Below are positions 24,835 through 34,715 of a stretch of 44,080 bases of DNA, piece by piece (position 1 is the first letter of the stretch; every line of letters begins with the position of its first letter). The notes under the pieces were generated by a model that saw only the letters and a program-made list of their open reading frames with translations, did no database searches and was not told the DNA's origin. Both the position numbers and the translations under genes were made by a program. Source of the stretch: Hyphomicrobiales bacterium (lineage in GTDB: Bacteria > Pseudomonadota > Alphaproteobacteria > Rhizobiales > Beijerinckiaceae); NCBI GenBank assembly GCA_025356415.1, contig JANXTB010000376.1:1-44080 (forward strand), in the 5' to 3' direction.

Positions 24835-25635
24835 TCAACCGTGCTTGCGGCACCAGTCGATGACGATGCGGTTGAACTGCTCCGGATCTTCGATGTTCGG
24901 CAAGTGCCGCGCCTTCGGGATCATGAGGAATTCGCCCCGTTGTACAGTCCTGGCGATCATGGCGTTTTCTTCCGGGTTGGCGCCGGGATCATCCTCGCCG
25001 CACAGCACATAAGTTGGCGCCGCAATCTTCGAAAGCTGATCCGTCCATTTGAAATTCTGGATCGCCGCCGCGCAGCCGATGTAGCCGGTCGGCGTGCAGG
25101 CCGCGACCGTCTCGCGAATCTGTTTCCAGCGGCCGGGATTACGCGCCTTGAACTCCGGGCTCAGCCAGCGCCCGAGCGTCGTGTCGGCGATCGGCTCCAG
25201 CGAATTGTCGCGGCGGATCTGCACGATGCGCGCGCCCCAGCGCTCCTGCGCGTCGGCCGGCGACTGGCTCTGCGTGTCGCACAGGATGAGCGAGCGCAGG
25301 CGCGAGGCATGGTTGATCCCCAGCCCCTGCCCGATCATGCCGCCGATCGACAAGCCCCAATAAATCGCCTTGTCGATGCCCAGTTGGTCCATCACCTCGA
25401 CGGCGTCGCCGACGAGATCGTCCATCGCATAGAGGCCCGGCGCCGGATCGCTGCCGCCGTGGCCGCGCAGATCCGCGCGCAGCACGCGGAAACCGGCCGC
25501 CGTGAAAGCGGGAACCTGTTCCGCCCACATGCCCATGTCGGATGCGAGCGCGTGGCCGAAAAAAACCACGGGCGCATCTTCACGGCCCACGATGTCGTAG
25601 GCGATGCGAAGGCCATTCTTTTTTCTGTAGAGCAT
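24835..25635 (-). CDS. Alpha/beta hydrolase, enol-lactonase or meta-cleavage hydrolase type
   Basis: A 266-residue cytoplasmic alpha/beta-fold hydrolase. The triad is complete: nucleophile in GLSIGGMIGQ (GxSxG), acid in LCGEDDPGAN and His in KARHLPNIED. The oxyanion region is VVFFGHALASDMGMW. The sequence is most like 3-oxoadipate enol-lactonases (PcaD), and similar enzymes cut ring-cleavage products. The start at 25635 (MLYRKKNGLRIAYD) lies 14 bases after the FAH-family stop; the ORF-track extension overlaps that gene. It is the last gene of the eight-gene operon headed by an extradiol dioxygenase, which supports a role in breakdown of the ring-opened product (inference). Confidence 0.88.
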   Translation of the reverse strand: MLYRKKNGLRIAYDIVGREDAPVVFFGHALASDMGMWAEQVPAFTAAGFRVLRADLRGHGGSDPAPGLYAMDDLVGDAVEVMDQLGIDKAIYWGLSIGGMIGQGLGINHASRLRSLILCDTQSQSPADAQERWGARIVQIRRDNSLEPIADTTLGRWLSPEFKARNPGRWKQIRETVAACTPTGYIGCAAAIQNFKWTDQLSKIAAPTYVLCGEDDPGANPEENAMIARTVQRGEFLMIPKARHLPNIEDPEQFNRIVIDWCRKHG

Positions 25636-25649
25636 GTGCGCGTCCCCGT

Positions 25650-26513
25650 TCAGGCCTGATGCGCGCGCACGGGCACGTCCATGCGTCCGATCAGCGGGCA
25701 CTCGAGCGTGATCACATCGCCGGGCTTCACCGGGCCGACGCCCGAGCAGGTGCCGGTGTAGATCACATCGCCCGGATAAAGCGTGTAGAAGGACGTGGCG
25801 AATTCGATGAGGCGGCGGACGTTGTAGATCAGATAGGCCGTGTTGGTCTTCTGCCGCGTCTCGCCATTGACCTTGAGTTCGAGGGTAACGTCGGTCACAT
25901 CCGGAATTTCATCCGCCGTCACCATCCAGGGGCCGAGCACCGCATAACCGTCCGGCGACTTGCGGAACGAGCGGTCTTCCGGACCGCGGATCGTCATGTC
26001 GAGGCCCAGCGTATAGCCCGCGACGCAATCGAGCGCGTTGTCCATGGTGAGGTTAGTGGCCTGCTTGCCGATGACGACGACGAGTTCGAGCTCATGATCT
26101 GTGCGGCGCTCGGGGAAGCGCACCGGCACGCCCTCTGAGGGACCGACGATGGAGGTCGCCGCTTTCAGGAAGAGCCCGTCAGTGCCGATCTTCGCCGTGT
26201 GCTTGGAGCCGCCCGCCTGACGCGCCGCCTCCATTTCGATGATATGGTCCTGATAATTGGTCGGCGCCGCGACGGCCTTGGGCACGCGCGCGATCGGCGA
26301 GAGCAGTTTCACCGACGACACATCGACGCCCGGCGCCTTCTTGGCGGCCTCCATCAACTGATCCTTGATCTGCGGCAGCGCCGCGACCACGGCGTCGCAT
26401 TTCGCGGCGTAGGGCGTGCGCGCGCGAACCTCGGTCTGCACGTCGGTCACATCGTGAATCTTGTCACCGATGACGACGCCGAGACGGTCATCTCCAAAAC
26501 GACAGATACGCAT
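25650..26513 (-). CDS. Fumarylacetoacetate hydrolase (FAH) family protein
   Basis: A 287-residue cytoplasmic Mg2+-dependent enzyme of the FAH family, which includes fumarylpyruvate and acylpyruvate hydrolases, 2-hydroxyhepta-dienedioate isomerases and meta-pathway hydratases. Metal ligands are visible in RRTDHELELVVVIG (E-x-E) and GLDMTIRGPE (Asp), followed by NTAYLIYNVRRLIEF and PGDVIYTGTCSGVGPVKPGD, the latter being the typical C-terminal block. The N-terminus MRICRFGDDRLGVVIGD is the usual extra strand domain. AAGGAG precedes the ATG. It lies 20 bases after the PrpD gene. In the operon it would act on the ring-opened or hydrated acid after dioxygenase action (inference). Confidence 0.92.
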   Translation of the reverse strand: MRICRFGDDRLGVVIGDKIHDVTDVQTEVRARTPYAAKCDAVVAALPQIKDQLMEAAKKAPGVDVSSVKLLSPIARVPKAVAAPTNYQDHIIEMEAARQAGGSKHTAKIGTDGLFLKAATSIVGPSEGVPVRFPERRTDHELELVVVIGKQATNLTMDNALDCVAGYTLGLDMTIRGPEDRSFRKSPDGYAVLGPWMVTADEIPDVTDVTLELKVNGETRQKTNTAYLIYNVRRLIEFATSFYTLYPGDVIYTGTCSGVGPVKPGDVITLECPLIGRMDVPVRAHQA

Positions 26514-26533: not shown

Positions 26534-27934
26534 TCAGGCGCGCAGCGCCGCGACAATGTCCTGCGCCGATGCGAGGCGCTCGGCGTTGAGCACGAGATCG
26601 ACCACGCGATCGACCTTGTCGTTGCTGAATTGCGTCGACGCCAGCTTCCGGAACTTGGAAACGACATCCGCCTCAGTCGCAAACTTCGCCTCGCTGCCGC
26701 GCGGCGCCTCGACGGTTTCCATTTCGACATCGCCGTTCTTGAAGCGAATCTCGACACGCACCTTGTGGCGGAAGCGCGAACCCAGCGCGGTGATCGCCGG
26801 ATCCTCGACCACGTCGACAAGACGCGACACCGCGATGCGGTCCGGATCGGCGACCTTGTCCTGCGTGAATTGCGCGACGAAGACATCGCCTTCCAGCAGA
26901 TAGGTCGCGATGCAATAGGGCAGGTTCAGTTGCGCGGAGGTCAGGCCCTCGGGCTTGTAGGGCCAGCCGACGTGATCTGCGGTGACCTGCGAACCATGCA
27001 CGATGATCTTCTCGATATCGGCGAGCTTGAAAGGATGGCGCGCCTCAATCTCGCGAATGCCGTCGAGCGTCGTGTGATTGCTGCCGACGCAGGAATAGAA
27101 TTTCAGCGCGATCTGCATGGTCTCGAAACGTTCGCCGAGTCCGGCCGACAGAGCCTCGAGATTGTAGCGATCATGCGAACGCGAGAAGGTCGAGCAGAAC
27201 CCGCCATATTCGCTCTCGAACACATCCTGAATGCCGGTGTATCCGCGCCGCGCCAGCATGGCGCCGTAATAGCCGCTCTGCGCGGAACGCCCCGCATGCA
27301 TGCGCTTGACCATCGAGCCATATTGCGCGGCCATGAGGCCGGCGGCCTGCGTGCCGGCGATGCCGAGCGCGTTCACGGTCTGGCCAACATCAAGCCGCAT
27401 CGCCGCGGCGGCGCCCGCGGCCGCGGAATAGACGCCGAGCGTCGCGCCCGAGTGCCAGCCCTGGCCGATATGCTCTTGCCCCATGCAGATGCCCACACGC
27501 GGGCCGATCTCGTAGCCCGCAACCGTCGCTGCAAGAAAATCCTTGCCGGTGATGGCGGCGTTCTTTTCAAGCACCGCGAGGACCGGCGGCAACGTCACCG
27601 CGCCGACATGCAGCACGCCGACGCGATGCACGTCGTCGAGCTCGAAGCTCTGCACCAGCGCGCCGTTGATCAGCACGGCGTGCGGCGCGGACAGCTTTTC
27701 CTTCGTGCCCCAGACCGATGTCGTCGTGCTGGAGTCCTCGTCGCCCAGCGCCTCGCGCAGGATCTTGCTCCACGGCAGATCGACGCCATAAATCGCGCAG
27801 CCGAGGGAATCCAGAACCAGCAGCTTGATGCGCGCGAGCACCTCCGCGGGAATGCGATCATAGGTGAAACCGCTCACGAATTCCGCGATCGCCTGCGTGT
27901 GCGGGTTGCCCCCGGCTCCATGTGACTTGGCCAT
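26534..27934 (-). CDS. MmgE/PrpD-family protein (first of a tandem pair in sequence order)
   Basis: A 466-residue protein of the MmgE/PrpD family, whose known members are 2-methylcitrate dehydratase, cis-aconitate decarboxylase and iminodisuccinate lyase. Hallmarks: N-terminal helical bundle (AIAEFVSGFTYDRIPAEVLA, LVLDSLGCAIYG), INGALVQSFELDDVHRVGVLHVG, YEIGPRVGICMG, GWHSGATLGVYSAAAGAA, GSMVKRMHAGRSAQSG and, in the smaller C-terminal domain, FYSCVGSNHTTLDG. Full length. It follows its paralog by 16 bases. Catalysing a (de)hydration or lyase step on a polycarboxylate fits, but the substrate cannot be named. The identity with a true PrpD is doubtful because no methylcitrate synthase is present. 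Confidence 0.92.
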   Translation of the reverse strand: MAKSHGAGGNPHTQAIAEFVSGFTYDRIPAEVLARIKLLVLDSLGCAIYGVDLPWSKILREALGDEDSSTTTSVWGTKEKLSAPHAVLINGALVQSFELDDVHRVGVLHVGAVTLPPVLAVLEKNAAITGKDFLAATVAGYEIGPRVGICMGQEHIGQGWHSGATLGVYSAAAGAAAAMRLDVGQTVNALGIAGTQAAGLMAAQYGSMVKRMHAGRSAQSGYYGAMLARRGYTGIQDVFESEYGGFCSTFSRSHDRYNLEALSAGLGERFETMQIALKFYSCVGSNHTTLDGIREIEARHPFKLADIEKIIVHGSQVTADHVGWPYKPEGLTSAQLNLPYCIATYLLEGDVFVAQFTQDKVADPDRIAVSRLVDVVEDPAITALGSRFRHKVRVEIRFKNGDVEMETVEAPRGSEAKFATEADVVSKFRKLASTQFSNDKVDRVVDLVLNAERLASAQDIVAALRA

Positions 27935-27950: not shown

Positions 27951-29303
27951 TTAATGTATCCAGTCGATGCGGCTCGCCTGCTCGAGGCTGCAGAGCCGTT
28001 CGAAAAGTTTTTCCGGATCTGCGTCCGGGTCCTGCCCTGTCATGATCGTGAACCGGGCGCGCAAATCATCCATACTCAATGGACACGACGGTGTCCCCGG
28101 AAAGTCGCTGACTTCGCGCTCGAAAACCCGTCCGTCCGTACATGTCAGCACGGAGCGGGTCATCCAGTCGGAATGGCTCTTGCGGCCATCGCTGACCACG
28201 TCGATCTTGGCGCAGAGCTGCCGCACGGCCTTGTTGTGGAGTTTTGCAGGATCGAAGCTCGCGGGGTCCGCCGCCTTGCCGGTCAGCGCGCAGGCGACCG
28301 AAAACGGGATGCTGTAGTTCGCCATGGCGAGATCGGCCGGCGACTTGTTGCCGTTCAGCTCGGCCATGCGCGACGTGCCGTAAATGATGATCGATTGCAC
28401 GTCCTGCGGCTTCAGTCCTAGCTCGGTTTGCCAGCATTCGATCGCGTAGATCGGCGTGTGCGCGGTGATGTGGCAGGGGTAGCGCTTGAGGCAGAGATTG
28501 AGCGTCTCGTAGTCAACTCCGAGCCCCTCGGTCAGCGTCTCGACGCGATACTTTTCACAATAGGTTGCGAGAAATCCCTTCTGGCCTTCGAGGATCTGAT
28601 GCGGGCCCGAAAAGCCGCGCTCGGCGAGACGCGCGGCGAACAGACCATTTTGCGCGGCGCGCCCGATGTGTAAGCGCTTCACCATCGCGCCCTGTCCCTC
28701 GAATGCGAATTGCATGAGGCCGGCCGACATGGAGCCTGCAATGCCGAAAGCCGAATTCATGGTCGCGGCATTGAATTTGTAGATCCGGCCCACGGCGGCT
28801 GCGGCGCCGAATGGCCCGGTGAGACCTGGCGCATGAAAGCCGCGCGGCTCGGCGGAATGCAGGGTCGCGGCGCCGATGCGCATCAGCACTTCGAAACCGG
28901 CGATCACGCCCGCGAGAAAGTCGCGCCCGCTGGCCTGCCTGTCCTGCGCAGCAGCCAGCGCCGCCGCAACCACGATGGCGCCGGGATGCACGCCGGCGCC
29001 GGGCTTGCGCAGGCTGTCGAGTTCCAGCGCATGGGAGAGCAGGCCATTGGCGAAGGCTGCCTGCTCGGGGGCGAGAGACACTTCGCCGGGACCGATCAGG
29101 CGCGAGAGGCCGAGACCGCCTTCGCTGGCATGCGCCATGGCGATCTGTCCCCATTGCGTCGTGCGACCGCGACGGCCGATGGCGATCGTGTCGATAATGC
29201 ATTCGCGCGCTCGCGCGATGACGTTGTCGGGAACGTCCTCAAGTTGCAGACCGGCCGCGTAGGCCGCCAGCTCCGCGCTATAGGCCTTGGTCGAAGCGCT
29301 CAT
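27951..29303 (-). CDS. MmgE/PrpD-family protein, second paralog
   Basis: A 450-residue MmgE/PrpD protein. Matching blocks to its neighbour include ECIIDTIAIGRRG, ANGLLSHALELDSLRKPGAGVHPG, LAGVIAGFEVLMRIG, FHAPGLTGPFGAAAAVGRIY, GAMVKRLHIGRAAQNG and RYPCHITAHTPIYAIE. It differs at the region around the conserved His (LRKPGAGVHPG against VHRVGVLHVG), so the pair may catalyse distinct steps. It starts on ATG at 29303, which overlaps the CapA-like stop (ATGA), hence coupled translation; no separate ribosome binding site is obvious. Proteins in this family are homodimers; a heteromeric pair is possible but unproved. Confidence 0.92.
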   Translation of the reverse strand: MSASTKAYSAELAAYAAGLQLEDVPDNVIARARECIIDTIAIGRRGRTTQWGQIAMAHASEGGLGLSRLIGPGEVSLAPEQAAFANGLLSHALELDSLRKPGAGVHPGAIVVAAALAAAQDRQASGRDFLAGVIAGFEVLMRIGAATLHSAEPRGFHAPGLTGPFGAAAAVGRIYKFNAATMNSAFGIAGSMSAGLMQFAFEGQGAMVKRLHIGRAAQNGLFAARLAERGFSGPHQILEGQKGFLATYCEKYRVETLTEGLGVDYETLNLCLKRYPCHITAHTPIYAIECWQTELGLKPQDVQSIIIYGTSRMAELNGNKSPADLAMANYSIPFSVACALTGKAADPASFDPAKLHNKAVRQLCAKIDVVSDGRKSHSDWMTRSVLTCTDGRVFEREVSDFPGTPSCPLSMDDLRARFTIMTGQDPDADPEKLFERLCSLEQASRIDWIH

Positions 29304-30355
29304 TTTTGCGCATCCGGCGCGCGAACGACGACTTCATTGCCTTCGCGGTCGAGCCGCGCGCCGAGTTCGAGGCTGCGCTTCTGCAGGTCGCGTAGCTCTT
29401 CGGTCTCGTCCGCGAGATCGCAGATGTAGGTTTCGTTGATGTCGTTGTGACGGACGAATTCGAAAGCGGCGCGAGTCAATGTGCTCCCGTCGAAATCGAG
29501 CTTCGCCATCATGCCGATCCAGTTTCCATGCGTGTGGCCGCCATGCCCGGTGTGAAACGAGAAACTGCCGAGGCCGTAGAAAATAGGCTTGCCGCGATAG
29601 ACTTCGACGCCGAGCGAGTAATGCGGGCCGTGGCCGATGACAGCATCCGCGCCCATGTCGATCGCGTGATGCGCGATCTCCTTCATGTATTCGAGCACAT
29701 CCTTGTTGAGGCCCCAGTGGAACGACGCAATGACGATGTCGGCGTTTTCACGCGCCGCCTTGATGTCGTCTTCGAGACGCTTCAGGTGATCCTTGTCGGC
29801 CCAGGTCACGATATAGGGCGGTATTCCGGGCCGGTTCATCGGCGGAATTTCACGCTTCATTTTATACATCGGTACTTGGTACGCGGTATGCCCGCGCAGC
29901 ACCGCGATCCCCGCCGCATGTTTTGTGGCTTCATGATTGGTCGCCCAGAACACCGAGCTTTTCTGGATGAACCCGATGCGCTGGCCCTTGCGCGTCACGA
30001 TGGCGGGCGCGCGCGCTTTCACATCAGACGCGCCGGCGCCCGTATGCGCAATGCCGGCGGCGTCAAGATAAGCAATGGATTCGTTGATCGCCTGCTCGCC
30101 GTAATTGACGTTGTTGGCCAGTCCGACAACGTCGATCCCGTAGCGCTTCAAAGCGGTCTGCGCGACATCCGGATTGGCGAAGAAGCCTTCAACGCTCGTC
30201 GAGCCTTCGTTGATCCTGTCAGACAGGCAGCATTCGAGATTCGAAAACACGAGATCGGCGGATTCGAAGGTCTTGCGCATCCGGCGGAATGGAACGTCGG
30301 GGTCGTCGACGTTCATCAAGTTGACGTCGCCTGTGAGCATCAGACTGAAAGACAT
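29300..30355 (-). CDS. CapA-family metallophosphatase-like protein, altered metal motif
   Basis: A 351-residue protein of the CapA/PgsA family (calcineurin-like fold; known for poly-gamma-glutamate synthesis). Visible: LMLTGDVNLM, ADLVFSNLECCLS, VIASFHWGLN, GADAVIGHGPHYSLGVEVY, GLGSFSFHTG. Two features are odd. There is no signal peptide or membrane helix, and the usual NNHxxDYG metal motif reads NNVNYGEQ, two residues shorter and without His or Asp. The start at 30355 (AAGGA seven bases upstream) is preferred over 30400. Embedded in a ring-cleavage operon between a receptor and two PrpD genes, it is more likely a soluble enzyme of that pathway than a capsule gene (inference). Confidence 0.82.
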   Translation of the reverse strand: MSFSLMLTGDVNLMNVDDPDVPFRRMRKTFESADLVFSNLECCLSDRINEGSTSVEGFFANPDVAQTALKRYGIDVVGLANNVNYGEQAINESIAYLDAAGIAHTGAGASDVKARAPAIVTRKGQRIGFIQKSSVFWATNHEATKHAAGIAVLRGHTAYQVPMYKMKREIPPMNRPGIPPYIVTWADKDHLKRLEDDIKAARENADIVIASFHWGLNKDVLEYMKEIAHHAIDMGADAVIGHGPHYSLGVEVYRGKPIFYGLGSFSFHTGHGGHTHGNWIGMMAKLDFDGSTLTRAAFEFVRHNDINETYICDLADETEELRDLQKRSLELGARLDREGNEVVVRAPDAQK

Positions 30356-30365
30356 GGCGCGTTCC

Positions 30366-31370
30366 TTATTCAACGATTTCATTGAGGCCCGGAACGACAA
30401 GAGAGGCCGTCGGAATCACTGACGACATATCCTTCAACGCCACCATGTCCTTCATCATGTTCGCGAGCGGAGCCGTATGAATGGCGCTCGTGTGGGCGAA
30501 GAAGTCGATGGACGCCAGGAAGTCGTAACTCTCGGCGATTTCCTCGCGATTACCCTTTGATGCTTCCACGAGAATATCGATGGCCTCGTTGCGATTGTCC
30601 TTGTTGTAGAACCACGCTATGGCCTCGTCCACGGCGGCGTTGATCTCGCGCGCTTCCTTCATGTTCGCCTTGGCCCAGCGCTGCGACACCTGCATGCCGG
30701 TCTGCGGCAGGTCCTGCGCGTAATCCTTGACGAGACCCAGCGATGTAAACCCTCGTTTCACCGCGGCAAAATTGAACGGCGGCACGAGCATGGTCGCATC
30801 GATGGCGCCCGACTGCAGGGCCGCGAAACGCGCGCCGGTCGCGCCAATGACGATGATGTCGTAATCACCGTCCTTGAGGCCAGTCGAGTTCATCACGCGA
30901 TCGAGAAAGATCTTGTTGATGTCGCGCAGGCCGCCGATGGAGATCTTCTTGCCCTTCAGGTCTTTCAGGCTCTTGATCGCGGGCTGGCCGATCATCACGT
31001 AATTCGGCGTCTGCCCGATGATGCGCATGATCGCGACGGGCGCGCCTTTCTCGACCGCATGAAGCGGCTCGGCGAGTCCGTTGACCGCCACAAGATCGAG
31101 CGATCCAGCCGCGAGCTGCTGTACGAGGCCCGGCGCCGTCGGCACGAAGACGACATCGGGCTTGATGCCATGACGCGCAAAGAAGCCTTTCTTCATCGCG
31201 ATGAGAAACGGCCAGACGCCAGACGTATACGAGCCCAGCACGCCGGTCACGACGACCTTTTCGGCCGCGACCGAAGCCTGCGGCTGGACGAAAGCCATTA
31301 CACAGAGCGCCGCGCCGAGAAGACCGGCGCGAATGCTTTTGCCTCCGGCATATTCGCCATCTCGTGTCAT
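30366..31370 (-). CDS. NMT1/TauA-like ABC solute-binding protein
   Basis: A 334-residue periplasmic receptor of the nitrate/sulfonate/taurine (NMT1/SsuA) type. A long signal segment (SIRAGLLGAALCVMAFVQPQASVAA) is followed by EKVVVTGVLGSYTSGVWPFL, AMKKGFFARHGIKPDVVFVP, GLVQQLAAGSLDLVAVNGLA, SLKDLKGKKISIGGLRD and a long helical C-terminus. GGGAGGGG is right before the ATG. It follows the signal-less relative by 32 bases and precedes CapA by 10. No permease or ATPase gene of the SsuBC type is in the window. Likely captures the pathway's substrate (inference). Confidence 0.9.
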   Translation of the reverse strand: MTRDGEYAGGKSIRAGLLGAALCVMAFVQPQASVAAEKVVVTGVLGSYTSGVWPFLIAMKKGFFARHGIKPDVVFVPTAPGLVQQLAAGSLDLVAVNGLAEPLHAVEKGAPVAIMRIIGQTPNYVMIGQPAIKSLKDLKGKKISIGGLRDINKIFLDRVMNSTGLKDGDYDIIVIGATGARFAALQSGAIDATMLVPPFNFAAVKRGFTSLGLVKDYAQDLPQTGMQVSQRWAKANMKEAREINAAVDEAIAWFYNKDNRNEAIDILVEASKGNREEIAESYDFLASIDFFAHTSAIHTAPLANMMKDMVALKDMSSVIPTASLVVPGLNEIVE

Positions 31371-31402
31371 CTTTCCCCTCCCGCTTTTTTTTAGATTTTT
31401 TA

Positions 31403-32341
31403 TCAGCCGTGTTCGACAAGCACGTTTCCGTCAGACCGTAGCTTTTGGGTGGCGCGATGGTAGGAGCTGTCGACATAATCAGAAGGCTTGCCCGGTGTGA
31501 CGCCAGCGCCGAAATGGCGCCTCAGCTCAAGGGTATTTACGAACCCCGCTTCATCGATGGTCGCTGTCGGCTCGAGGCCATAGCGATCGAGCCGCAGCAA
31601 GCGAACGCATTCGCTCGCCACATCCGGTTCCGTGCCAAGTTGGCCGGTGAGGATCGCGACGCAAGCCTCGTGATTGGCCTCATCGAGCACGAAGTCGAGG
31701 CAATCAATGTAGGCGGCGATGTAGCGCGTCACGAGATCGCGGTTGGCTTCCGCCCAGGCGCGCAGGGCGAAAGCTGACCCGGCCTGATACGGACCGATGA
31801 AATCCGTCGTGTCGCCGAAGCTTTTCAGGCCGAGCTTTTTGGCCTCCAGCGTGTAAGGCAGATTGAGTACGGAGGCCGTGTTGGCGCGATCATCCAGCAT
31901 CGCCTTGATGCGCAATTCGCCACGCCCCACCGCCACAACCGCATAATCCTCGCCGCGCTTCAGGCCGGCGTCTTCGAACATGCGGTACGCCTGAAACGCG
32001 AAAGCCGTGTCGGGCGCATCGACGACGAGGCGGCCGCCGCGCATCTGCGCGAGGTCGTCGATCTCCGGCTGCACGATCAACTCGTTCATGCCGGCGTCGC
32101 CGCCCATAAAGACGACGATGTCGACCCCATCGACGTCGCGCAGCGCTACCGCATTGTCGATCGCGACATGCACGATGTGAAAGTCGCCGCGCGCGAGACC
32201 ATCACGCTGAGCACGTGAATTGTCGGTCGACACGACTTCAAGCGCAATGCCGCGCTTTACGAATACGCCTAGATCGAGACCCACGCGCAGCGGCAGGGAC
32301 TTGGCGGTCGGATTGCAATTGACGACGAGATGGTCAGCCAT
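31403..32341 (-). CDS. NMT1/THI5-like protein without signal peptide
   Basis: A 312-residue protein with the type-II periplasmic-binding fold of the NMT1/THI5 family: LPLRVGLDLGVFVKRGIALE, GLARGDFHIVHVAIDNAVAL, GGRLVVDAPDTAFAFQAYRM, LDDRANTASVLNLPYTLEAK. It starts MADHLVVNCNPTAKSL with no hydrophobic leader, so as drawn it stays in the cytoplasm. Its start is four bases from the dioxygenase stop and no upstream in-frame leader is available. It may be a cytoplasmic ligand-binding protein, an enzyme like THI5-type proteins, or a receptor that lost its leader. Confidence 0.8.
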   Translation of the reverse strand: MADHLVVNCNPTAKSLPLRVGLDLGVFVKRGIALEVVSTDNSRAQRDGLARGDFHIVHVAIDNAVALRDVDGVDIVVFMGGDAGMNELIVQPEIDDLAQMRGGRLVVDAPDTAFAFQAYRMFEDAGLKRGEDYAVVAVGRGELRIKAMLDDRANTASVLNLPYTLEAKKLGLKSFGDTTDFIGPYQAGSAFALRAWAEANRDLVTRYIAAYIDCLDFVLDEANHEACVAILTGQLGTEPDVASECVRLLRLDRYGLEPTATIDEAGFVNTLELRRHFGAGVTPGKPSDYVDSSYHRATQKLRSDGNVLVEHG

Positions 32342-32345
32342 GGCC

Positions 32346-33317
32346 TCAGCTCGCCGGCGGCGCGACGAACGCCTCGGACGAAAACGGCACGCTGTGTTCC
32401 GCGTCCTTCATTTCCTTCGAGGGCGGGCCCGCCGCGCCCCATTGATCGTTGCGCCCGGGCTGCGGAACCCATTTCTCGACCGCGCCCGGCGCATAGGTTT
32501 CATCGATCTGCTGCACTTCCGCGGTGTATTCGAGCGGCAGGCCCTCGAAGCCGGAAAAATAAGCGAAGATGTTGTTGCCCGGCCCATGGCGGCCGACGCC
32601 CCAGCCGATGCTGAAGCCGGCGTCACGCATCCGTCCGATGCCGCGCATGACCGCGTCAAAGCCGCTCATCTCGAACGCGAGATGATGCAGCGTGGAGACG
32701 TCCGAGGGCACGACGGCGATCGTGTGGTGATCGGAATTGCAGTTCAGGAAAAACATCTTCCGCGTCCGGTCGACGACGCGAAAGCCGAGCGCGCCGGCGT
32801 AGAATTTTTCGAGCACGTCAGGTTGCGGCGTGTTCAACACGAGATGCGACAGCTTGAGCGGAGCATCATTGCGCGTCGCCTCCGCGGCGTCGCGCGCATC
32901 ATCGGCGACCAGCATGATGAGGCGCCCCTCGGGATCGCGGAACGACAGGCCGTAGCCGCCGCCGGGCTCCGACAGGACCTCGACGTCGCCGACATGCACG
33001 CCTTGCGCCTGCAGCACGGCCCGCCTTTCCTCCAGCGCAGCACGGGACGCCGCGCGGAAATCCGCCCTCAGGACCTCGGTCTTGTCGCGCTTGTGCAGGC
33101 CAATCAAGTAGCCGCTGGCGCCAACCGCACGCAGATAGACGGACGAGGGCGTGCGCGCCATCACCTCGAGCCCCCATGGGCCGGCAAAGAAATCCACCGC
33201 GGCGGCAAGGTCCATGACGCCGAACTGGACGCTCCGGAGCGCGTAGACGAAGGCGCGCTGGGCGCTCTCCTGCAAGCTTTTCATCGTTACACCTGAGTTA
33301 TTCATCATGGACGCCAC
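32346..33317 (-). CDS. Type I extradiol ring-cleavage dioxygenase (two VOC domains)
   Basis: A 323-residue protein of two vicinal-oxygen-chelate domains, the plan of BphC-type catechol 2,3-dioxygenases that open a diol ring next to the hydroxyls using Fe(II). The C-terminal domain keeps all expected residues with the right spacing: H158 (LSHLV), H198 (SDHHTI), H212 (LHHLAFE), H244 (GRHGPGN), Y253 (FAYF) and E263 (PLEYTAE). The N-terminal domain lacks these, as usual. Start: GTG at 33317 with AGAGGA eight bases upstream; ATG at 33308 or 33284 are alternatives. First gene of the leftward eight-gene operon, divergent from the double-HTH LysR. The substrate is unknown. Confidence 0.88.
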   Translation of the reverse strand: MASMMNNSGVTMKSLQESAQRAFVYALRSVQFGVMDLAAAVDFFAGPWGLEVMARTPSSVYLRAVGASGYLIGLHKRDKTEVLRADFRAASRAALEERRAVLQAQGVHVGDVEVLSEPGGGYGLSFRDPEGRLIMLVADDARDAAEATRNDAPLKLSHLVLNTPQPDVLEKFYAGALGFRVVDRTRKMFFLNCNSDHHTIAVVPSDVSTLHHLAFEMSGFDAVMRGIGRMRDAGFSIGWGVGRHGPGNNIFAYFSGFEGLPLEYTAEVQQIDETYAPGAVEKWVPQPGRNDQWGAAGPPSKEMKDAEHSVPFSSEAFVAPPAS

Positions 33318-33449: not shown

Positions 33450-34715
33450 ATGAACCATCTCAAACGCCTACCGAGTTTCCGGCATCTGCGCGTCTTCGAG
33501 GCGATCGCCGAATGCCGGAATTTCAGCCGTGGCGCGGCGTCTGTTCATTTGTCACAACCAGCTGCGACGCAGGCGGTTTTCAATCTCGAGAAATGGGTCG
33601 AGGCGTCGCTTTTTTATCGCAACAAGGGCGGCACTTATCTGACGACCGAAGGCGATATTTTCCGGCTCGGCGTGAGGCGCCTGTTTGAGGCCGTCGAGCA
33701 AAGTCTGGCGCATGATTTGTTCGACGGGTCGAGCGAGCGCGCCAAGCAACTCGCGCCCCGCATCAAATCCTCGCACGTCAACGTGCTGCGGGCGATTTCC
33801 GAATTCTCGTCCCTGGAGCTCGCCGCGAACTTCCTCGGCCTGTCGCGTGCTGCGGTGCAGCGTATCGCGCGCGATCTTGAGGCTACGCTCTCGTCCACGC
33901 TGTTCGAGCGGACGCCGCGCGGCGTATCGGCCAATGCGCTGGGCATGCGCGTCAGCGCCTCGTTCCAAAAAGCCTTTCTGGTGATCGACAACGCTGTCGA
34001 AGAGATCGCCTCGCTGCAAAAGCAGTTCTCGACGCATCTCTACATTGGCGCACAACCGCTCGCCTCCACCTCATTGCTCGCCGCGGCCGTCAACGATCTG
34101 CTTGCGCAGCACCCGCAAACGCAGGTGCGCATCATCGAGGGCTCGTACCAATATCTACTGCAGGAGCTGCAGTCAGGCCGGCTCGACATGATGTTCGGCG
34201 CGCTGAAGTGCCCGAAATCCCTGGACAATGTAAACGAGATCGCGCTGTTCCAGGAGCCCTATTGCGTCGCCGCGCGCGCCGGTCATCCGCTGACCAAGAA
34301 GGCAAGGGTGACGTTGCGCGATCTGGCCGAGGTCGACTGGGTTCTGCCGGGCGCCGGAACGCAACGCCGTCTCGCATTCGAGATGATGTTCAAGGATCAT
34401 CCCAAAACGCCGACCTCGCAGATCGACGCGACATCCGTCTCCGCGCAGATCGCGTTTCTCACATCGAGCGATCGTCTCGCCTTGCTGACGCCGCTTGAAT
34501 TGGCGCTGGATCCGCATATGGGGAGCCTCGCGCAGATCAATTTCGACACCAAGATCGCGCGCAAGCCGGATGGCGTCACGGTGCGCTCGGACTGGCGGCC
34601 CAATGTCGTGCAGACGGCTTTTCTCGAGGGCCTGCGCAAGCGTGTTGCGACATCGACCTTGAGCCCCTCGGCGAAGATGCCGACGGGCTTCCCCGCGCTC
34701 GATCGCGCCGGCTGA
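33450..34715 (+). CDS. LysR-type regulator with two tandem HTH domains
   Basis: A 421-residue regulator, about 120 longer than normal LysR proteins. The first winged HTH spans residues 8-67 (FRHLRVFEAIAECRNFSRGA, VHLSQPAATQAVFNLEKWV). The second spans about 106-166 (NVLRAISEFSSLELAANFLG, LSRAAVQRIARDLEATLSST, FERTPRGVSANALG). The effector-binding domain follows from about residue 195 (THLYIGAQPLASTSLLAAAV). Both HTHs look intact, so each chain should carry two DNA-reading heads. It is divergent from the dioxygenase operon across 132 bases with three repeats and is thus its likely switch. No frameshift is visible, so this is one gene and not two fused by error. Confidence 0.9.
   Translation: MNHLKRLPSFRHLRVFEAIAECRNFSRGAASVHLSQPAATQAVFNLEKWVEASLFYRNKGGTYLTTEGDIFRLGVRRLFEAVEQSLAHDLFDGSSERAKQLAPRIKSSHVNVLRAISEFSSLELAANFLGLSRAAVQRIARDLEATLSSTLFERTPRGVSANALGMRVSASFQKAFLVIDNAVEEIASLQKQFSTHLYIGAQPLASTSLLAAAVNDLLAQHPQTQVRIIEGSYQYLLQELQSGRLDMMFGALKCPKSLDNVNEIALFQEPYCVAARAGHPLTKKARVTLRDLAEVDWVLPGAGTQRRLAFEMMFKDHPKTPTSQIDATSVSAQIAFLTSSDRLALLTPLELALDPHMGSLAQINFDTKIARKPDGVTVRSDWRPNVVQTAFLEGLRKRVATSTLSPSAKMPTGFPALDRAG

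Follow-up and report, generated by a model that had tools for sequence, protein, structure and literature searches.

A soluble CapA-like protein lacking the NNHxxD loop in a catabolic operon of a Hyphomicrobiales bacterium

The CapA-containing operon

The window, i.e., the whole 44,080-nt stretch of DNA analysed here (positions 1-44080), carries many genes for solute-binding proteins (several TctC/Bug, iron-type SBPs and NMT1) amid genes of aromatic and carboxylate catabolism. One of its operons has the order VOC/extradiol-like protein, NMT1b, NMT1a, CapA, PrpD1, PrpD2, FAA hydrolase and PcaD-like hydrolase (Table 1). The segment from NMT1a to the FAA hydrolase is conserved in six other Hyphomicrobiales/Beijerinckiaceae loci (L003-L008), where the PcaD-like hydrolase gene comes next wherever the contig goes on and the ORF was called; this conserved order upholds the catabolic-operon setting given to the soluble CapA in a preliminary description of this DNA. 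Linked capB/capC-type capsule genes were found neither in the window operon nor among the annotated genes of the orthologous loci. The two NMT1 genes are 32 bp apart (31371-31402), and ABC permease/ATPase genes lie between them in L003 and in the Beijerinckiaceae loci L005-L007; the genes for the core of the transporter appear to have been lost from the operon in the window.

Table 1. Coordinates of the operon genes and of the CapA motifs in the window.
Feature	Position	Strand	Basis
PcaD-like alpha/beta hydrolase; true start probably within the ORF (orthologues mostly 266 aa)	24835..25701	-	
FAA hydrolase family, HpaG/didehydro-deoxyrhamnonate hydrolase-like	25650..26513	-	domain match
PrpD2, MmgE/PrpD family	26534..27934	-	domain match
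PrpD1, MmgE/PrpD family; start overlaps the CapA stop (ATGA), translational coupling	27951..29303	-	domain match, sequence overlap
CapA-like protein, PGA_cap, calcineurin-like fold, soluble, 351 aa	29300..30355	-	ORF, Pfam, Foldseek
Motif V, G-H-G-P-H (241-245); His245 = MslH His295	29621..29635	-	HMMER alignment, conservation
Motif IV, H213-W-G; counterpart of MslH metal ligand His259	29711..29719	-	HMMER alignment, conservation
Motif III, NNVNYG (81-86); keeps the ligand Asn82, lacks the catalytic His by deletion, Asn in place of Asp, loop two residues shorter	30098..30115	-	alignments, clade
Motif II, E41-C42-C43; metal-ligand Glu, then clade-specific Cys	30227..30235	-	clade conservation
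Motif I, G-D-V-N (9-12); Asp10 kept, clade-specific Asn12	30320..30331	-	clade conservation
NMT1a, periplasmic substrate-binding protein of NMT1/SsuA type; gene upstream of CapA, 10 bp from its start	30366..31370	-	
NMT1b, second NMT1-like binding protein	31403..32341	-	domain match
VOC/extradiol-dioxygenase-like protein	32346..33317	-	domain match
LysR regulator, divergent	33450..34715	+	domain match

The CapA ORF begins with ATG downstream of an AAGGA ribosome-binding site, and its stop codon overlaps the PrpD1 start in an ATGA (junction sequence ...CAAAAATGAGCG...), so that the coupling proposed earlier is visible in the sequence itself. Its product passes the gathering score of PF09587, PGA_cap (E 7.6e-52; 176.7 bits for a cut-off of 27). 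No membrane anchor was detected in it, the best 19-mer reaching a Kyte-Doolittle mean of 0.72, in keeping with the description of the protein as anchorless. The accompanying premise that CapA proteins usually act at the membrane does not fit the sampled family: only 4 of 104 proteins have a candidate anchor, and the anchorless state is thus not unusual.

An AF2 model (pTM 0.82) resembles solved members of the calcineurin-like (metallo-dependent phosphatase) superfamily. Foldseek gives MslH as the best PDB match (E 5e-22), with purple acid phosphatases around 1e-6 and Vps29 also among the matches. Model confidence is low in the motif III loop (mean pLDDT 63 for residues 81-90) and in the lid (residues 135-186, mostly below 50).

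Comparison with the MslH active site

MslH, a lasso-peptide C-terminal Trp epimerase of the same CapA/PGA_cap calcineurin-like fold (PDB 8GQ9/8ITG, PMC10406935), is the best PDB match by sequence as well as by predicted fold, and its structures are the only solved relatives recovered by sequence search (profile search E 6.6e-26). The window protein scores 88.3 bits with the NCBIfam model epimerase_MslH, below the cut-off of 700. In MslH, Ca is held by Glu44, Asn87, His259, and His261, and acid/base chemistry is assigned to two dyads, His88/Asp91 and His295/Asp11; the H88A and D91A variants have no epimerase activity (PMC10406935). HMMER aligns Glu41, Asn82, His213, and His245 of the window CapA with Glu44, Asn87, His259, and His295, while Asp10 is equated with Asp11 by the common GD motif, located just ahead of the aligned stretch; GHGPH is also common to both proteins. 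Three of the four Ca ligands are therefore present, and nothing in the HWG motif corresponds to His261, an absence common to HWG-type CapAs.

The preliminary description had read the family motif NNHxxDYG as NNVNYGEQ, two residues short, with the other CapA motifs kept. Both points hold: HMMER alignment to MslH and MAFFT alignment give ANN-VNYGEQ for this stretch, and GD (9-10), NLE (39-41), HWG (213-215), and GHGPH (241-245) are in place. The NNHxxD loop with its catalytic His and Asp is typical of PF09587, even if the Pfam model does not require it. It is the role then given to the missing His and Asp, that of metal ligands, that was mistaken, since their equivalents in MslH, His88 and Asp91, form a catalytic dyad and the neighbouring ligand Asn87 is kept as Asn82 (PMC10406935). 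The GNH histidine of the superfamily is likewise not a metal ligand (PMC3407115). As judged by alignment, what has been lost is a catalytic acid/base dyad rather than a set of metal ligands, with His245/Asp10 the only one of the two MslH dyads left.

Origin and remodelling of the His-less clade

All 14 homologues at 61-84% identity share the sequence ANNVNYG, more distant ones read NNVN[YI]G, NNQNYG or SNV[AT][YF]P, and the His-less loop extends throughout a 30-member clade of Hyphomicrobiales/Beijerinckiaceae, Acetobacteraceae, other Alphaproteobacteria, and Betaproteobacteria. This conservation, in 14 and then in 30 homologues, rules out sequencing error, a frameshift or chance as the source of the motif. 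On a 104-row tree built with the motif columns masked, two changes suffice for the His-less loop, one for the clade and one for L146; the loop of the clade arose once. On an 85-row tree the 18 NNVN rows form one group (100/100), whose sister is the SNV pair (100/95). The sample is homology-driven rather than random, with 26 CapAs from one genome (G1105); a search around that genome added ten members, and family searches around G061 and G450 returned only themselves. L146 (G1105:C174:7702-8484), a CapA paralogue beside PrpD and TctC genes, has lost the same His and Asp independently (SNMTGYWG versus SNHTGDWG).

Among orthologues, dN/dS is about 0.04-0.12, distant pairs being near synonymous saturation, and the lineage of the window CapA is under purifying selection. 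The annotation of PF09587 as capsule synthesis could suggest a relic capsule or poly-gamma-glutamate protein drifting in a catabolic locus; such low dN/dS values, the single old origin of the variant and the lack of an anchor make this very improbable, as does the fact that capsule genes were not seen among annotated neighbours. A check for capsule loci around clade homologues gave the same picture, none being seen around members, whose neighbouring genes are annotated in part only.

Far from being degenerate, as the metal site had been called, the ligand positions are invariant in the clade (D10 and E41, 29/29 each; N82, H213, and H245, 30/30 each), and the loss concerns the acid/base dyad. 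Flanking them are residues almost confined to the clade: Asn12 (Asp+2, D-x-N; 29/29 in the clade, 0/73 outside), Cys42 (Glu+1, E-C; 29/29 and 3/73) and Cys43 (Glu+2, E-C-C; 27/29 and 0/73). In the DxH signature of the superfamily, the ligand stands at Asp+2 (PMC3407115), the Glu+1 residue of YmdB, Asn40, is a metal ligand (PMC10406935), and VPS29, whose motif-II residue is Asn39, holds Zn near its pocket through Cys41 (motif-II residue +2) and His10 (PMC3101248). The gap of 31 residues between D10 and E41, from motif I to motif II, matches that between D8 and E39 of YmdB. The same spacing separates Asp8 and Asn39 of VPS29. Because the ligands are invariant and new clade-invariant residues flank them, the site appears rebuilt rather than decayed; the clade-specific residues suggest a remodelled metal centre, in which Asn12 and Cys42/43 are perhaps metal-binding, as candidates placed from sequence positions. 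Compared with MslH, the window CapA thus lacks His88/Asp91 and the His261 ligand, and has D-x-N and E-C-C instead. The residues so gained form a specific set of candidates for compensating the loss, within a known fold.

Association of CapA genes with PrpD genes

If the NNVNYGE motif were tied to PrpD, a possibility raised in the preliminary description, the two should always be found together. The Acetobacteraceae members of the clade (L009-L016) have no PrpD neighbour, and its betaproteobacterial members adjoin TctC or mandelate-racemase-type enolase genes, with one flanked by PrpDs. Conversely, soluble CapAs with a normal NNHxxD loop lie beside PrpD in N. aromaticivorans pNL2, in Croceicoccus and in Betaproteobacteria. 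Overall, PrpD is found within 2 kb of 10 of 31 His-less and 23 of 73 His-bearing CapAs, and PrpD proximity switches at least 17 times on the 104-row tree. A link between motif and PrpD is therefore rejected, and the two are independent in this homology-driven sample; the soluble catabolic CapA beside MmgE/PrpD is a more general pattern than the His-less motif. Among the papers searched, none was found that links CapA-family proteins to MmgE or PrpD, and the pattern may still be described elsewhere.

The genome of L013 (G1105, Betaproteobacteria bacterium NC_groundwater_1277, a 4.2-Mb MAG) holds 26 CapA-family, 116 MmgE/PrpD, and at least 150 TctC (Bug) matches, an extreme expansion of paralogues. 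There, CapA-PrpD proximity within 2 kb amounts to 12 cases, for 3.7 under uniform expectation. It exceeds that of TctC genes, taken as controls, only marginally (p 0.055 at 2 kb; 0.0076 at 6 kb), and part of it thus reflects a general clustering of catabolic genes.

Proposed function

We would give an about even chance to the window CapA being a soluble metal-dependent enzyme of carboxylate catabolism with a rebuilt active site, a reading supported by an operon that combines uptake proteins with carboxylate enzymes. Repurposing for catabolism is a more probable origin for it than decay of a capsule protein, and it is predicted to be neither an MslH-type two-base epimerase, which the loss of the second His/Asp dyad makes unlikely, nor a polyglutamate synthase. 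In the proposed mechanism, a divalent metal would be held by Glu41, Asn82, and His213, and a second metal position could be formed or completed by Asp10, Asn12, and His245, perhaps with Cys42. A substrate carboxylate or a metal-bound water would be activated at this centre, with His245/Asp10 or a Cys as the remaining acid/base, and the product would be passed on to the coupled MmgE/PrpD enzymes. The substrates of characterised MmgE/PrpD enzymes have a C4-dicarboxylate unit in common, and this family has been proposed to work by an enolate mechanism (PMC12290011). The operon context cannot identify the reaction, because other, His-bearing CapAs occupy similar operons.

Three other readings were weighed. 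The main non-enzymatic rival is a pseudoenzyme, a metal-stabilised binding module that would help to assemble the PrpD enzymes or part of a transporter, or regulate them. It is modelled on VPS29 of retromer, which has a metallophosphoesterase fold, a phosphatase-like metal pocket with weak metal binding, no phosphatase activity and a scaffold role, and whose Zn residues His10 and Cys41 occupy the positions of Asn12 and Cys43 (PMC3101248). VPS29 shares with the window CapA a Cys two residues past the motif-II ligand; it is nevertheless a distant, eukaryotic scaffold with Asn in place of the Glu bridging residue. The tight translational coupling of CapA to PrpD1 and the presence of Vps29 among the Foldseek matches favour such a role, which we nevertheless regard as rather unlikely: every first-shell ligand is invariant over a diverse clade, and binding to PrpD fails to explain this conservation because PrpD does not adjoin CapA in most of the clade.

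Cys serves as base in other racemases. An epimerase or isomerase in which one base has been exchanged, with His245/Asp10 kept and Cys42 or Cys43 in place of His88/Asp91, might convert a small hydroxy- or amino-dicarboxylate that is then passed to PrpD. This reading would draw on the precedent of MslH as a two-base epimerase with a CapA fold and on the occurrence of an invariant Cys beside a metal ligand in the very clade that lost the His/Asp. It is also favoured by the presence of C4-dicarboxylate epimerases and isomerases among MmgE/PrpD proteins (PMC12290011). Against it, the isomerase step could come from PrpD itself, and a Cys would have to reach the substrate face; we hold this version to be unlikely.

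A metal-dependent phosphoesterase, or another hydrolase that dispenses with the GNH histidine, would resemble E. coli YfcE, in which Cys-74 replaces that residue and artificial phosphodiesters are still hydrolysed (PMC3407115). The remaining motif regions are indeed largely intact in the clade. However, the first His of GHxH is Gly (G243 in 27/30 members), as in the non-phosphatase MslH, and the operon indicates no phosphorylated intermediate. YfcE-type phosphodiesterases also differ in not being PGA_cap proteins, in having their other motifs intact and in their context. The phosphoesterase reading appears quite improbable.

To return to the metal-dependent carboxylate enzyme, a broader and more tentative proposal is that the clade is a CapA-fold family that lost the widely conserved catalytic His/Asp once, gained an Asn/Cys-augmented metal centre and may carry out an undescribed reaction, for instance an elimination or an isomerisation by Cys and His, on carboxylates imported by Bug- or SsuA-type binding proteins. 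It would belong to a large group of soluble CapAs that has gone unrecognised, catabolic in role and associated with MmgE/PrpD enzymes. Capsule synthesis is the routine annotation of CapA-family proteins; with many of them soluble and in catabolic loci here, such annotations may mislead. A clade without the base, with the metal ligands and with candidate compensating residues also offers a natural experiment in which the chemistry of this fold has been altered.

Related proteins and loci

CapA-PgsA of poly-gamma-glutamate synthesis has the Pfam family (PF09587) and motif order of the window CapA, which differs in its lack of an anchor and of capsule genes, its His-less loop and its catabolic operon. 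Similar in context are the soluble NNHxxD CapAs of N. aromaticivorans pNL2 (WP_011906658), Croceicoccus and Variovorax (the latter beside LeuC/LeuD), likewise near MmgE/PrpD, TctC, LeuC/LeuD or aromatic genes; they retain the His and Asp, usually have GHHxH and fall outside the NNVN clade. In the two sphingomonads (L039 of pNL2 and L087 of Croceicoccus), CapA belongs to a conserved triplet with a hypothetical protein of about 345 aa and MmgE/PrpD; the pNL2 hypothetical has no Pfam match, and the triplets lie next to aromatic or tannase/TonB genes. In six Acetobacteraceae loci (L010, L011, L012, L014, L015, and L016), CapA is convergent, tail to tail, with bacA/uppP, encoding undecaprenyl pyrophosphate phosphatase. 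Finally, the sister group of the clade (L037 and L038, SNVAYP/SNVTFP) is found near genes for an Opp-type ABC transporter and mandelate-racemase-type enolases, with a GH42 beta-galactosidase gene additionally near L038.
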